From NCBI GenBank assembly GCA_027068435.1, contig JAMOTA010000019.1:1-43362 (forward strand): a stretch of DNA of 43,362 nt, read 5' to 3'. Under the pieces are notes generated by a model, which saw nothing but the letters and a program-made list of their open reading frames with translations, did not search any database and was not told the DNA's origin. The position numbers and the translations under genes were made by a program. Below, one piece after another: positions 35,815 to 43,187 of the stretch (within the stretch, counting starts at the first letter, position 1; each line of letters starts with the position of its first letter). Source of the DNA: Sulfurovum sp. (GTDB taxonomy: Bacteria > Campylobacterota > Campylobacteria > Campylobacterales > Sulfurovaceae).

Positions 35815-36642
35815 TTAATTTGGGTTTACAATAAAATAAGCACTAACAATACACACTAAAGCAAATATTACTCTTTTAAGAACAACTCCAATATTATTTC
35901 CTACTTGACATGAAGTACACTGTTTAAATTTCTTAGCTTCATAATTTGCAAAGATAAAAAATCCAACCATTAATGCTATAACCATAGGAAAAGCAACTTT
36001 ATCATAAGTAAACCAACTTGATAGAGTCTCTTTAGAGATATTAAAAAGTGGTAGAAAAAGTGAAACAAGCATAAAAAAGAGTAGTTTGTCTGCAACACTT
36101 ACAAAGTAAACTTTTTTACTTTCTGGTGGACAAAATGCATTTTCCTCTAGGATAGGCATATCACCTTTACCTGCCATGGCACGTGCCGCTTGTTCTTTTT
36201 GATGTAGAGGTAGCCTATCAATAAGTGTAGTATTAAAAAGATAATCAATCATTCTTTGAAATGTTGATGCCTCCTCTTTATTGTCTACTTTTTTAGTTTG
36301 CATGTTACCATGCTCATCTTCATAAATAATACTGAGTGTTTGATAACGTTTTACTGTAATAGGGTGATTATGAAAGTAACTACATATTTCAGTTGAGTCA
36401 AAAATATTTTTTTGCGTAATAATTCGAGGATTTGCATAAGCAACATACTCTTTATCTTCTTTTATAACCATGAGCTGATAAAGATGACCAATCTGAATGG
36501 CACTTAAAGCTGTGAGTTCTTTTTCTTTCATCGTATCTACTATATCTTCATAAATAAGTAGATAACTCTCCTTAAAATCTCTTACAGGACCAGCATTTAC
36601 GTTAATAGAGGTATCGGGATAGTATTTAAGTGTTTGAATCAT
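35815..36642 (-). CDS. Membrane protein with a catalytically dead peptide-deformylase domain
   Basis: Residues 1-150 align by eye with peptide deformylase: LKYYPDTSINVNAGPVRDF (start), ALSAIQIG (for GxGLAAxQxG), LMVI, YANPRI, EICS (for EGCLS, Cys87 kept) and FQRMIDYLFNTTLIDRL (for QHExDHLxGxLFIDRL). The HExxH metal motif is R130-M-I-D-Y134, so both histidines and the catalytic Glu are lost. A linker then leads to three transmembrane helices (about 184-200, 217-233, 253-272) with CTSC (242-245) between the last two. AGGA lies 8 bases before the ATG. No catalysis is expected; sensing or binding of peptide N-termini at the membrane is a guess. The true def gene must be elsewhere. Confidence 0.78.
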   Translation of the reverse strand: MIQTLKYYPDTSINVNAGPVRDFKESYLLIYEDIVDTMKEKELTALSAIQIGHLYQLMVIKEDKEYVAYANPRIITQKNIFDSTEICSYFHNHPITVKRYQTLSIIYEDEHGNMQTKKVDNKEEASTFQRMIDYLFNTTLIDRLPLHQKEQAARAMAGKGDMPILEENAFCPPESKKVYFVSVADKLLFFMLVSLFLPLFNISKETLSSWFTYDKVAFPMVIALMVGFFIFANYEAKKFKQCTSCQVGNNIGVVLKRVIFALVCIVSAYFIVNPN

Positions 36643-36732: not shown

Positions 36733-36759
36733 AGAAGAAGAGCATAAAGCTCTTCTTCT
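36733..36759 (-). terminator. 11-bp hairpin after the 53-codon gene
   Basis: AGAAGAAGAGC pairs with GCTCTTCTTCT around a 5-base loop, 5 bases beyond the stop of the small gene on the minus strand, followed by TCAAATATTT. It ends the SQR-small gene transcript and supports the small gene being real. Confidence 0.65.
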
Positions 36760-36952: not shown

Positions 36953-38425
36953 TTATTCAGGGATAAGCGTCCAACCTGGCTTAAGTTTTGCTTTGTAGAT
37001 AAACATATGGTGTAAGATATGTTTAATCCAGTGTCCTGCAAGACCGATTTCACCGAAAGTATAGTCTGTATCACGTCCCGTTCCTGGGTATTTTTCAAAG
37101 TCTGGAACAACAGGGTAAACAGTCATCGCAGCAGCAGTTCCTGAAGTAAGACCTTTTCCAGCAGATGCAACACATGCTGCACCCATTTCAGCCATTGATG
37201 CTTCATGTAAATGAGCCTCTTTGCCTTTATTGATAAGATCACATACTGAATGAGCAACAGCTTTACCAATAATACCTGCAGGCATACCAGTTCTTGGTGG
37301 TGTAGGGTTAATTGGAGTTCCATTTACAGAACTTGCTGGTTTAGAGATAAGGTGTGGTGGTGCAAATGCAATACCACATGCAAACATATTGCTGTGATCA
37401 GGGTTTTGGTAAGTACGAGGCCAGTCAGATGCTTTCCAATTTTCGTAAGCACCTGCATCGTATTTTGCATCTACTTTCATAAAGCCATTTGGAGCAAAGA
37501 TATTACTTGTTATATCTGCACCCTCTTTATCGTATGCTTTAAGACCAACACCTGCAAATGGTGGGATAAGCATTGCAAAGTCAAACTCTTCTTCACCCAT
37601 AGTTCCATCAAGAAGTTCATAGCTTACTTTTCCTGCTTCTACTTTGTTAACATGTGCTCCGATAATCCAAGGAACATCTCTCTCAGCAAAAAGTGATTCA
37701 GCAAAAAGTTTAGAACTTACAACGTAACCTCCAACTTTCATATGAAGACCACCCATACCAAAGTCACCCATAAATGATTCATTAGAAATCCATTTAATAT
37801 CTAGCATATCTCTTACACCAGCTTTATTTGCTTCATGTTCGATGTTAAAGATATATTCAAATGCAGCACCTTGACATGTACACATACCATGACCAGTTCC
37901 TACAAGAATTTTTTGTCTTTCACCTTTTTTTGCTTTTTCAAAAATTTGGTTAAGTTCTAAACTTGCATGAACAGCGTGATCTGCAGTACATACAGAAACA
38001 GTATGCTCTCCAAGGTGACCCTTTCCATTTCCTAAACCAGGTGTAGCATCAAAATTTAGTTTAGGACCAGTAGCATTAATAAGATAATCATATTCTATTA
38101 CTTCTGTTTGACCCTCTTTATCTTGCCCTGTATATTCAATAGTAATATACTCTTTATCACTCTCTTTATTTCCATGAGGATGAATTGAAACAGCTTTTGC
38201 TTGCTTAAAATCAATTCCAGCTTTTTCATAAACAGGAGCTAATGAGAAGACTACGTCCTCTTTTGCCAGTTGACCAACTCCAACCCAGATGTTAGATGGA
38301 ATCCAATTCCATTGTGAATTTGGAGTAACCACTACTACTTCATGCTCATCTCCGAGCCATTTTCTTGCAAATGTTGCAGCAGTATGTCCAGAGACTCCAC
38401 CACCCATAACTATTAAACGTGCCAT
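36953..38425 (-). CDS. Sulfide:quinone oxidoreductase-like FAD flavoprotein
   Basis: The 490-residue protein opens MARLIVMGGGVSGHTAATFA (FAD dinucleotide fold) and has INATGPKLNFDA (second nucleotide motif), HTVSVCTADHAV (Cys146), GHGMCTCQGAAFEY (Cys182, Cys184) and MFACGIAFAPPH (Cys350), then TPPRTGMPAGIIGKAVAHSV. These match SQR motifs; Cys146 and Cys184 fall at SQR catalytic cysteine positions, but the third sits three residues early. The C-terminus (HWIKHILHHMFIYKAKLKPG) is amphipathic and could dock on the membrane. SQR oxidises sulfide and reduces quinone. A longer C-terminal part than type I suggests another SQR type. AAGGAAAG precedes the ATG. Confidence 0.85.
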   Translation of the reverse strand: MARLIVMGGGVSGHTAATFARKWLGDEHEVVVVTPNSQWNWIPSNIWVGVGQLAKEDVVFSLAPVYEKAGIDFKQAKAVSIHPHGNKESDKEYITIEYTGQDKEGQTEVIEYDYLINATGPKLNFDATPGLGNGKGHLGEHTVSVCTADHAVHASLELNQIFEKAKKGERQKILVGTGHGMCTCQGAAFEYIFNIEHEANKAGVRDMLDIKWISNESFMGDFGMGGLHMKVGGYVVSSKLFAESLFAERDVPWIIGAHVNKVEAGKVSYELLDGTMGEEEFDFAMLIPPFAGVGLKAYDKEGADITSNIFAPNGFMKVDAKYDAGAYENWKASDWPRTYQNPDHSNMFACGIAFAPPHLISKPASSVNGTPINPTPPRTGMPAGIIGKAVAHSVCDLINKGKEAHLHEASMAEMGAACVASAGKGLTSGTAAAMTVYPVVPDFEKYPGTGRDTDYTFGEIGLAGHWIKHILHHMFIYKAKLKPGWTLIPE

Positions 38426-38639: not shown

Positions 38640-38682
38640 CTACTCTTTGATAAATATCTATAAAAAGGTGTATTTTAGTTCA

Positions 38683-40875
38683 ATGAATAGTTTAATATCT
38701 AGTAATTTCTTAAGATATCTCTTTTTAATGATATTTTTTACATCAAATATCTTTTCTACGATATGGAATAGCCCACATACTATAAAAAAAGATGTATCTA
38801 AAACACTATATAGGGCTTTTTCTATCTCACCTAAAAGGCTTGACCCTGTAGTTTCATATAGCGCAAATGAGTGGGCTATTATTGGGCAGATATATGAACC
38901 ACCTTTACAATATAATTATTTGAAACGTCCTTATGTGTTAGAACCATTAACTCTTACCAAAATGCCAACTATTACCTATTTAGATAAAGAGGGTAATGAA
39001 GTAGAAGAGAACTCTTCTAAAGTAATGTTTTCACAATATCGTTTAGAGCTAAGAGAAGATATTTTGTATCAAAATCATCCTTGTTTTGTAAAAGATAATA
39101 ATGGAGGTTTACTTTATGGATCGCTCTCTAACAATGATTTAATGCAGATAACTAAGTTAAGTGATTTTAAACAATCAACTACTCGCTACTTGGTTGCAAA
39201 TGACTATGCATATGCTATTAAACGTATGGCAGTAAGACAAAATCATTCGCCTATTTTAGACAATATGAAAGCATATATTGTAGGACTAGAATCATTTTCT
39301 AAGTCTATTAATTCTATTGTTAAAGAAAAAAAGAAAAAAAATCAATTAGTTGATTTACGTTCATATTCGATTGATGGAGTAAAAGTTCTTAATGATACTA
39401 TCTTAACTATAAAGATTAAAGGAGAGTATCCACAGTTTCTATATTGGTTGAGTATGAATTTTTTTGCGCCTATTCCTTGGGAAGCAGATCTGTTTTATCA
39501 ACAGTCTGGACTTATTGCTAAAAATTTAACCCTCAATTGGTTTCCTGTAGGTACAGGGGCATATTATTTAGCTGAAAATAATCCAAATCGACAGATGAAA
39601 TTACTTGTAAATCCTAACTATCATAGTGAGAATTATCCACGATTAACTCAAGAAGAGAGTAAAAAATCTCATATACCAAAAGAACTATTAGAAGACTCTG
39701 GAAAAAAGCTTCCTTTTATTAAAGAAGTTATTTATTCTCTTGAAAAAGAGAGTATTCCATTATGGAATAAATTTTTACAAGGATACTATGATGCTTCAGG
39801 TATAAGTTCTGAAGCGTTTGATCAAGCAGTACAAATTTCTACTTCAGGCAGTATGGGCTTAAGTAATGAAATGAGAGATAAGGGTATTGTATTAAAAAGT
39901 TCAGTAGAACCCTCTATTTTTTATTTAGCATTCAATATGTTAGATCCCATCGTAGGTGGATATTCTTCGTCAGCTAAGAAGTTACGCCAAGCTATTAGCA
40001 TAGCACAGAATCAAGAGGAGTATATCTCTATCTTTACTAATGAAAGAGGTATTCCAGCACAAGGTCCTATCCCCCCAGGTATTTTTGGATATGAAGAAGG
40101 TAAAGAAGGAACAAATAGTATTATTTATAATTGGATAGATGGAAAATATGAAAGAAAATCTTTAGATGAGGCAAAAAAACTATTATCTGAAGCGGGTTAT
40201 CCTAATGGAATTTCTAAAAAAACAGGTAAACGATTAAGACTCTATTATGATACAACTGCAACAGGACCTGATGATAGAGCCTTAATGGACTGGAGACGAA
40301 AACAGTTTGATAAGCTAGGGATACAACTGGTTATAAGAGCAACTGATTATAACCGTTTTCAAGATAAAATACGAAAAGGAAAAGCTCAACTTTTTTCATG
40401 GGGATGGAACGCAGATTATCCAGATCCCGAAAATTTTCTTTTTTTACTTTATGGTGGTAATGCAGTAGTTAACACAAATGGTGCAGGAATAAACTCTTCA
40501 AATTATCAAAATCCTAAGTTTGATAAACTTTTTAATGAGATGAAAACAATGAAAAACTCTCCTCTTAGAATGCAAAAAATTAAAGAGATGGTAAAGATAT
40601 TAAGAGAAGATACTCCTTGGATTTGGGGAATGCATCCAAAGTCATTATCTCTTTCTCATAAGTGGTATCGTAATGTTCAACCTCATGCTATGGCAAATAA
40701 TACACTTAAATATAAACGTATTGATACAGAATTAAGAGCAAAAAAACAAGAAGAGTGGAATCAACCTATCTTATGGCCGTTGGGAGTACTTCTATTTTTA
40801 ATCATTATTTTAAGTTATTCTCTATATTATGCTTATATCTTACGGCAAAGTAGTGTAATAAAAGGAAAATCCTAA
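38683..40875 (+). CDS. Peptide-type ABC transporter substrate-binding protein with C-terminal membrane anchor
   Basis: This SBP_bac_5-family protein has 730 residues from ATG 38683. It has a Sec-type signal (SSNFLRYLFLMIFFTSNIFS), the opening LYRAFSISPKRLDPV, and late family motifs GTGAYYLAENNPNRQM, FSWGWNADYPDPENFLFLLY and NYQNPKFDKLFNEM. Unusually a hydrophobic helix lies near the C-terminus (ILWPLGVLLFLIIILSYSLY), so the protein should be anchored in the inner membrane rather than lipid-tethered or free. An in-frame TTG at 38647 or GTG at 38668 could be the start, but neither has a ribosome-binding site; AAGG precedes 38683 at a long 14-base spacing. Oligopeptides are the family substrate; YejA-like peptide uptake is an option. 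Confidence 0.88.
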   Translation: MNSLISSNFLRYLFLMIFFTSNIFSTIWNSPHTIKKDVSKTLYRAFSISPKRLDPVVSYSANEWAIIGQIYEPPLQYNYLKRPYVLEPLTLTKMPTITYLDKEGNEVEENSSKVMFSQYRLELREDILYQNHPCFVKDNNGGLLYGSLSNNDLMQITKLSDFKQSTTRYLVANDYAYAIKRMAVRQNHSPILDNMKAYIVGLESFSKSINSIVKEKKKKNQLVDLRSYSIDGVKVLNDTILTIKIKGEYPQFLYWLSMNFFAPIPWEADLFYQQSGLIAKNLTLNWFPVGTGAYYLAENNPNRQMKLLVNPNYHSENYPRLTQEESKKSHIPKELLEDSGKKLPFIKEVIYSLEKESIPLWNKFLQGYYDASGISSEAFDQAVQISTSGSMGLSNEMRDKGIVLKSSVEPSIFYLAFNMLDPIVGGYSSSAKKLRQAISIAQNQEEYISIFTNERGIPAQGPIPPGIFGYEEGKEGTNSIIYNWIDGKYERKSLDEAKKLLSEAGYPNGISKKTGKRLRLYYDTTATGPDDRALMDWRRKQFDKLGIQLVIRATDYNRFQDKIRKGKAQLFSWGWNADYPDPENFLFLLYGGNAVVNTNGAGINSSNYQNPKFDKLFNEMKTMKNSPLRMQKIKEMVKILREDTPWIWGMHPKSLSLSHKWYRNVQPHAMANNTLKYKRIDTELRAKKQEEWNQPILWPLGVLLFLIIILSYSLYYAYILRQSSVIKGKS

Positions 40876-41853
40876 ATGTTTACATATATAATTAAACGCA
40901 TTTTGTATGCAATACCTATTTTGATAGGGGTAAATCTTATTACTTTTATACTCTTTTTTATGGTAAATAGCCCAGATGACATGGCAAGAGCTCAACTAGG
41001 AGCTAAACAAGTAACGCCTCAACTTATCTTGTCATGGAAAGAGGAAAAAGGGTATGATAAACCACTTTTTTTTAATAGTAATGTTGAGGGTATGAAAACT
41101 GTAACAGATACGCTTTTTGTACAAGAGTCTATTAAGCTTTTTACCTTTAACTTTGGGTACTCCGATAGCAACCGTGATATAGGTTCAGATATACAAGAGA
41201 GAATGATTCCTAGCTTATCTATCGCACTACCCACATTTATAATATCATTAATTACAAATATCTCTTTATCACTCTTATTGGTGCTATTTCGTGGCTCTAC
41301 ACTAGATACTAGTATGATGATTATTGCGGTTATGATTATGTCAATCTCTGGACTTTTTTATATTATAGCAGGGCAAGTACTTTTTTCTAAAATGTGGCAT
41401 TGGGTTCCTATCTCTGGTTATGAGAGTGGATGGGGTGCTATAAAGTTTATACTTTTACCTGTACTTATAGGTGTTTTCTCTGGGATAGGTTCAGGGGTAA
41501 GATGGTATAGAAGTATCTTTTTAGAACAGGTAAACCAAGATTATGTTAGAACAGCTAGAGCTAAAGGACTATCTGAAGTAGATGTACTTTTTGGGCATGT
41601 TTTGAGAAATGGAATGTTACCTATTTTAACAGGGGTTGTGGTAGTTATTCCTATCCTTTTTATGGGTAGTCTTATTATGGAATCATTCTTTGGTATCCCT
41701 GGCTTGGGTTCTTATACTATAGATGCTATAAATGCACAAGATTTTGCTATTGTTAAAGCAATGGTATTTTTAGGTTCAGTACTTTATATTTTAGGATTAA
41801 TTTTAACTGATATCTCTTATACCTTATTTGATCCAAGGATAAAACTATCATGA
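40876..41853 (+). CDS. Peptide-type ABC transporter permease (DppB/YejB-like)
   Basis: The 325-residue protein has about six membrane spans. It opens MFTYIIKRILYAIPILIGVN, the DppB-family N-terminus, and has the EAA loop DYVRTARAKGLSEVDVLFGH, ESFFGIPGLGSYTIDAI and DISYTLFDPRIKLS. It starts directly after the binding-protein stop (TAAATG) and overlaps the next gene by four bases (ATGA), so the three are one operon. It is of normal length. Confidence 0.93.
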   Translation: MFTYIIKRILYAIPILIGVNLITFILFFMVNSPDDMARAQLGAKQVTPQLILSWKEEKGYDKPLFFNSNVEGMKTVTDTLFVQESIKLFTFNFGYSDSNRDIGSDIQERMIPSLSIALPTFIISLITNISLSLLLVLFRGSTLDTSMMIIAVMIMSISGLFYIIAGQVLFSKMWHWVPISGYESGWGAIKFILLPVLIGVFSGIGSGVRWYRSIFLEQVNQDYVRTARAKGLSEVDVLFGHVLRNGMLPILTGVVVVIPILFMGSLIMESFFGIPGLGSYTIDAINAQDFAIVKAMVFLGSVLYILGLILTDISYTLFDPRIKLS

Positions 41854-43187
41854 AGTTAGTATTTCTTTGGACAGATATAATGGTTTGGTTTTTAGTTATC
41901 TCATTGCTTACTTGGAGTTGGTTTATTGCTAAATCCCCACAAGTGAGAAAGCAGTGGCATACTATCTTCAAATCAAGCATCGCAATGGCATCTTCAATTG
42001 TTTTACTTTTTTATTTACTTTTTACTCTTCTTGATTCTGTACATTTACGTTTTTCAATGGAGTTAAAAGAGAGTAAAAAGTCAGAACTACAGTATTCAGA
42101 TACAGTAAGTCTTTTAGATTTAATTCTAAAGCATAACATTGAGTATACAGAGCGTACCTATTCTGCTCCCTTTGCTACTTCTGAATATACATCATCTATT
42201 ATTGTAGATGAAAAAGGAGTTATACAAAAAGAGTATCTACCTCTTAAATATGTAGGTAAAAGTGATGATATAGTCTCAAAATCATTTACTGCTATTACTC
42301 TAGGAATATGTATAAGTTTAACTTTGATAATTATACATTTGTTATGGCGTAAAAAAAGAGGCTTTGAGAGTGAACTACCTTGGCGTACTGCGTATATAAT
42401 TTCACTTCTGTTGATTACTATCTTTACATGGTTTTATATACTTAGTTTCGACTATCATGTTTTAGGTACAGATAAAGTAGGGGGAGATGTCCTCTATCAA
42501 AGCTTAAAAAGTATTCGTACAGGTGTACTTATAGGAGTTTTAACTACTTTTATTATGCTACCTGTAGCTATATTATTAGGTGTTAGTGCAGGATTCTTTG
42601 GAGGATGGATTGATGATATAATTCAATACCTTTATACAACATTAAGTTCAATTCCAGGTGTATTACTTATCGCTGCAGGAGTACTTTCAATGCAAGTAAT
42701 AATGGATAATAACCCTACATGGTTTGAGACTACTTTAGAACGTTCAGATTTACGATTATTATTTCTTATTTTTATACTTGGTATTACTTCATGGACAGGA
42801 CTTTGTCGATTACTTCGTGCAGAGACTCTTAAAATATCCCAAATAGAGTTTGTAACAGCAGCTAAGGCATTTGGTGTGAGTAAATTTACCATTATTCGTC
42901 GTCATATTATTCCTAACTTAATGCATATTATTCTCATATCTGTAGTTTTAGATTTTTCTGGGTTAGTACTAGCAGAGGCTGTACTCTCTTATGTTGGTGT
43001 AGGTGTTGACCCTACAATGCATTCATGGGGAAATATGATAAATCAAGCAAGACTTGAAATGGCAAGAGAACCTATGGTCTGGTGGTCACTTTTTTCTGCA
43101 TTTATTTTTATGTTTATACTAGTTCTTGCTGCAAATCTTTTGTCAGATAGAATTCAAACAGTGTTAGATCCAAGAAATAAAAAGTAA
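41850..43187 (+). CDS. Peptide-type ABC transporter permease (DppC/YejE-like) with N-terminal extension
   Basis: The 445-residue protein has a normal DppC core from about residue 180: LGTDKVGGDVLYQSLKS (205-221), GFFGGWIDDIIQYLYTT, the EAA loop EFVTAAKAFGVSKFTIIRRH and LSYVGVGVDPTMHSWGNM. The N-terminus is about 140 residues longer than usual, with two early helices (about 8-27 and 45-62), a polar domain (65-145) and two more helices (147-166, 181-200). A similar inserted domain is known in YejE-type permeases. No ATPase gene follows; the rRNA promoter comes next, so the ATPase must be encoded elsewhere. Confidence 0.92.
   Translation: MKLVFLWTDIMVWFLVISLLTWSWFIAKSPQVRKQWHTIFKSSIAMASSIVLLFYLLFTLLDSVHLRFSMELKESKKSELQYSDTVSLLDLILKHNIEYTERTYSAPFATSEYTSSIIVDEKGVIQKEYLPLKYVGKSDDIVSKSFTAITLGICISLTLIIIHLLWRKKRGFESELPWRTAYIISLLLITIFTWFYILSFDYHVLGTDKVGGDVLYQSLKSIRTGVLIGVLTTFIMLPVAILLGVSAGFFGGWIDDIIQYLYTTLSSIPGVLLIAAGVLSMQVIMDNNPTWFETTLERSDLRLLFLIFILGITSWTGLCRLLRAETLKISQIEFVTAAKAFGVSKFTIIRRHIIPNLMHIILISVVLDFSGLVLAEAVLSYVGVGVDPTMHSWGNMINQARLEMAREPMVWWSLFSAFIFMFILVLAANLLSDRIQTVLDPRNKK

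Follow-up and report, generated by a model that had tools for sequence, protein, structure and literature searches.

At vents and in sulfidic waters, sulfur-oxidizing Campylobacterota are major sulfide oxidizers; the fate of the sulfur made by their SQRs is, to our knowledge, poorly known. We know of no described SQR that has a pseudo-deformylase or the 53-aa protein described below as a partner. The portion of PMC8056087 that was available mentions neither, and a literature search carried out mostly at the level of database records returned no description of a membrane pseudo-deformylase paired with SQR. For peptide deformylases (PDFs), the available portion of PMC5591237 describes a C-terminal extension important for ribosome binding, as well as type 3 enzymes from Archaea and trypanosomatid mitochondria that are weakly active or inactive.

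The locus described here lies in a Sulfurovum sp. contig of 43,362 nucleotides, the whole of which is referred to below as the window. Its minus strand encodes a 275-aa protein that the original prediction had described as a dead deformylase fold joined to a membrane domain:

35815..36642, minus strand: pseudo-peptide-deformylase (pseudo-PDF) with three C-terminal membrane helices, 275 aa
36166..36642, minus strand: PDF-fold domain, residues 1–159, with C87, R130 and Y134 at the PDF metal-ligand positions Cys, His and His
35818..36165, minus strand: C-terminal part, residues 160–275, supported by hydropathy, AF2 and conservation

The PDF fold is present in this protein, which scores 75.7 against a Pfam cut-off of 22.8, while its best NCBIfam score of 43.6 falls below the cut-off of 190. 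The metal ligands of motif III (HExDH) are replaced, the motif reading RMIDY, and motif II (EGCxS) reads EICS, with the Cys kept and the Gly lost. Compared with peptide deformylase (PF01327, Def; E. coli PDF 1icj), members of the family have both His and nearly always the Cys and the Glu replaced, and the segment past motif III is neutral rather than basic and leads into three membrane helices. Type 3 PDFs, as described in the available portion of PMC5591237, likewise combine a PDF fold with motif substitutions, a likeness by description only; however, no membrane domain or SQR linkage is described for them there, and the pseudo-PDF family is bacterial.

A first homologue search returned 158 proteins at E ≤ 1e-3, most of them 260–279 aa long among the 120 matches listed, and a 38-member profile yielded 219 matches at E ≤ 1e-5, the best 120 of which were 262–304 aa in length and contained PF01327 in every case. 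Listed proteins and those from the analyzed loci (240–340 aa) were combined and, after removal of start-only variants, gave 220 distinct full-length sequences. None of these has both metal His together (H at position 130 in five, at 134 in three), none has the motif II Gly, and only one has Glu at position 131; the Cys87 position is occupied by T in 92, S in 88, C in 31, D in seven and other residues in two. N71, E85, R99, D133, C242, C245 and Q246 are invariant in all 220 sequences, Q50 is found in 198, P172 in 214 and C171 in 213, and two of the seven proteins without C171 (L103 and L127) still have CxxCQ. Judged from this alignment, the conserved part of the protein is the PDF scaffold plus a membrane-side cysteine motif, and not the catalytic center. 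The observation of a dead deformylase fold on a membrane domain was thus confirmed, and the lost metal site and the membrane domain proved to be conserved together among these relatives in sulfur-oxidizing Campylobacterota; neither of the outcomes named as damaging to it, a missing deformylase fold or homologues with an intact HExxH, was encountered. Several database entries for this protein bear the name “peptide deformylase,” which conceals the role of the protein, because the lost metal site speaks against a deformylase.

In a quick tree of 31 intact defs and 37 pseudo-PDFs, the latter formed one side of a branch (SH-aLRT 100). Of the 25 pairs with the highest similarity below 99% identity, the 22 with finite values had dN/dS ratios of 0.032–0.150, with dS high in many, and by these estimates the gene is under purifying selection. 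A PF01327 search of the 79 genomes that carry a pseudo-PDF found a match in all 79, with the best match at E ≤ 1e-43, which we count as a separate strong def, in 75; the four others are G145, whose def-like copy has one stop, G341, G357 and G387. The separate intact def that the original prediction had suggested looking for is present in the genome of the window (C16:71399-71875, with EGCLS and HEIDH). Net charge over a stretch of at most 32 residues past motif III averages +7.4 (sd 1.6) in 31 defs vs. +0.3 (sd 1.4) in 92 pseudo-PDFs. Genome G372 has two strong deformylase matches besides its pseudo-PDF (C16:63664-64134 and C28:7292-7768), and in the def tree one of the two, L195, stands on a very long branch and is possibly foreign or a contaminant.

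Hydropathy indicates three membrane segments in the C-terminal part, and an AF2 model of residues 159–275 alone also has three helices (pLDDT 88.6, pTM 0.78); structural comparison of this bundle gave no informative fold match. Residues 160–275 comprise C171-P172, the three helices, and C242-T-S-C245-Q246 between helices 2 and 3. The CxxC loop is the most positive (3 K/R, 1 D/E, with K256-R257 adjoining) and the first loop is balanced (2 K/R, 2 D/E), whereas the stretch before helix 1 in the window, despite K176-K177, is net negative (2 K/R, 4 D/E). Because the PDF-like domain has no evident signal peptide, we infer that the N-terminus and both Cys sites are cytoplasmic; with the pre-helix-1 stretch of the window not net positive, this predicted topology is a guess.

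Upstream of the pseudo-PDF, on the same strand, are a hairpin, a small protein and an SQR-like gene:

36733..36759, minus strand: hairpin with 11-bp arms and a loop of 5, situated 5 bases past the small-protein stop codon
36765..36926, minus strand: conserved 53-aa small protein between the SQR-like gene and the pseudo-PDF, with conserved RTC, Q, RF, IN.KM and KSH
36953..38425, minus strand: SQR-like flavoprotein, 490 aa (PF07992; matches to PDB 3hyv and 3sz0)

The flavoprotein is a homologue of the Aquifex SQR 3hyv (E 2e-36) and the Acidithiobacillus SQR 3sz0 (E 2.5e-28); it belongs to the PF07992 fold family and has three Cys (at about 146, 184 and 418) in columns common to both structures, which we take to be the active-site cysteines of SQR. 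Its sole NCBIfam match, to the type III selenoprotein model, reached 36.9 bits against a cut-off of 525. Gene order was compared across 101 loci, made up of 60 genome contigs, the window and 40 further regions, with partial overlap between the sets (L054 and L126 have identical SQRs). The ORF caller grouped the pseudo-PDF in 97 of these, the exceptions being L056, L072, L074 and L092, where overlapping ORFs or the edge of a contig interfered. In 78 of the 97, the pseudo-PDF is immediately preceded by an SQR-like gene of the same strand, at 114–559 bases (median 302.5) from the called pseudo-PDF start; in the remaining 19, the contig end cuts off eight (L057, L059, L070, L071, L082, L088, L089 and L123) and eleven copies lie elsewhere. 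Across 397 genomes of the phylum, an SQR-like gene (E ≤ 1e-100) was found in 111 and a pseudo-PDF (E ≤ 1e-20) in 79, including G249, where it is split across two contigs; all 79 carriers have the SQR (Fisher p 1.4e-57, uncorrected for kinship), and 32 of the 111 SQR genomes have no pseudo-PDF. On an SQR tree of 85 chosen rows, the adjacency label needs 8 changes vs. 28.6 in shuffles (0/500 as low), a clustering inflated by near-identical copies. Genetic linkage of the two genes is therefore well supported at the level of gene order and genome content, though such pairing can come from shared regulation without contact.

The gap between the two genes holds the small protein (an ORF of 52–67 aa) at 77 of the 78 SQR-adjacent loci, L045 alone being unmatched by the search pattern. 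Fifteen columns are invariant among 44 aligned sequences, including its Cys, and the copy in the window has no Pfam or NCBIfam match. For comparison, we used 40 SQR loci without an adjoining pseudo-PDF, nine of them from genomes with a pseudo-PDF elsewhere. The small protein was present at 31 of these; the SQRs without it comprise six of family f4 (L148–L151, L166 and L167), which are about 50% identical to the SQR of the window, plus L145, L175 and L176. In the small protein of L165, which accompanies an SQR without pseudo-PDF, the Cys is missing at the conserved place. The small protein is probably an SQR partner in its own right and, since it often follows SQR without a pseudo-PDF, looks like the older companion, with the pseudo-PDF as a later third member.

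At these loci, the stop codon of the small protein is followed by a hairpin whose sequence varies, and at 70 of 77 no more than 2 of 40 shuffles reached it. A consensus terminator scan did not call it a terminator, and the T tract is mostly poor, with a run of four T after the hairpin in only 6/79 and 5/25. The hairpin is just as strong at loci without a downstream pseudo-PDF, and the SQR/small-protein message seems to have its 3′ end there. Because it separates the small protein from the pseudo-PDF, co-transcription is not certain and the case for a tight operon is weakened; pseudo-PDF expression would depend on read-through past the hairpin or on a promoter of its own.

The eleven copies in another setting (L095, L101, L103, L108, L109, L112, L115, L122, L127, L130 and L131) include one adjoining uvrB (L122) and one adjoining a sigma-54 gene (L109). 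Two pseudo-PDF copies occur in each of eight genomes (G009, G037, G129, G186, G303, G333, G361 and G390), and six of the copies away from SQR (L101, L108, L109, L112, L115 and L130), five of which are second copies, form one clade (support 98). In gene clusters whose members were checked by Pfam, a MerR-type regulator gene was found near five of the eleven (L095, L108, L112, L115 and L131), a CMD/AhpD-like gene near four of those five, and a DsrE-family gene adjoining two (L108 and L112). DsrE/DsrF-like proteins (PF02635) are sulfur carriers; theirs is a different domain from the pseudo-PDF, with which they have the neighborhood alone in common. This company is a small hint of redox or sulfur chemistry.

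With SQR as its usual neighbor, a role for the pseudo-PDF in sulfide metabolism is suggested rather than protein trimming, and the two are likely functional partners. The alignments show that every relative compared retains the PDF fold and has lost the metal site, and the gene tracks SQR by position and by genome. The reading we favor, with confidence somewhat short of even, is that the pseudo-PDF is a membrane-anchored pseudo-enzyme acting as an accessory partner of SQR, with a possible part for its three Cys in handling or sensing sulfane sulfur. The SQR module would then comprise the flavoprotein, the ~53-aa protein and the pseudo-PDF, with the PDF-like domain docking the protein onto membrane-bound SQR from the cytoplasm, and with C171, C242 and C245, at the cytoplasmic face of the membrane, positioned to accept, pass on or sense SQR-made sulfane sulfur (persulfide or polysulfide). 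An accessory rather than a core subunit is indicated, because so many SQR genomes do without it. More doubtful is the fuller proposal that a deformylase fold was repurposed as an SQR membrane partner whose three Cys, perhaps joined by that of the small protein, accept or sense sulfane sulfur and couple sulfide oxidation to downstream sulfur use. With its invariant Cys motif beside SQR, the pseudo-PDF is a testable candidate for the fate of SQR-made sulfur and, if the proposal is true, would clearly exemplify how a housekeeping fold can become a pseudo-enzyme and acquire a new partner.

The data are explained nearly as well by a structural metal site or an assembly role. As an assembly or anchoring factor, which we consider rather unlikely, the pseudo-PDF would insert, anchor or stabilize the SQR/small-protein complex, and its Cys would hold structural Zn or Fe. 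The same linkage data apply, SQRs are monotopic membrane enzymes, and C171, C242 and C245 could be such a site, perhaps of four Cys if the invariant Cys of the small protein joined the CxxC and C171. This metal site is predicted at most, however; the L165 small protein lacks the Cys at the conserved place, and the 32 SQR genomes that go without a pseudo-PDF argue that it is dispensable. An improbable alternative is that the Cys read sulfide, polysulfide or redox state and pass a signal on, e.g., to a hybrid histidine kinase and an OmpR-like regulator whose genes lie nearby in lineage f7. Of 40 loci, 20 have kinase-like cluster 2, in most cases immediately downstream, and 19 have response-regulator-like cluster 3, with one member of each (L102) confirmed by Pfam, and the MerR-type genes near five copies point the same way. 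The pseudo-PDF itself, however, has no output domain, and neither the window nor the large gene clusters of 61 loci include a kinase/regulator pair, so such a pair is not a constant partner.

The role given to the protein in the original prediction, as a membrane protein that senses or binds formyl-Met N-termini or that chaperones nascent membrane proteins, fared less well than its structural observations and now appears very unlikely. It draws on the retained fold, with Q50 usually and E85, R99 and D133 always kept, but the motif II Gly is lost throughout and the segment after motif III, basic in true PDFs, is neutral here, which speaks against work on nascent chains; the C-terminal extension of PDFs is tied to ribosome binding (PMC5591237, available portion). 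The usual neighbors are the SQR-like gene and the small protein, and the constant ones include no gene of translation or export. That the gene is a decaying, functionless def duplicate, as the loss of catalytic residues might suggest, is hardly credible: the low dN/dS ratios contradict it, as do the residues outside the metal site that are invariant in all 220 relatives and the grouping of the family in one clade.

Elsewhere in the window, genes for ribosomal proteins L13 and S9 lie beside the pseudo-PDF on the opposite strand, tail to tail, and such genes are near it in 19 and 23 of 61 loci. Divergent from the SQR-like gene, a peptide-binding protein (PF00496) and then two permease genes (PF00528) occupy 38647-43187 on the plus strand; the PF00496 gene is present in 29 of 61 loci. 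Five tRNA genes around an EF-Tu-like gene, recognized by eye, form an ordinary cluster at 691-2839 on the plus strand.
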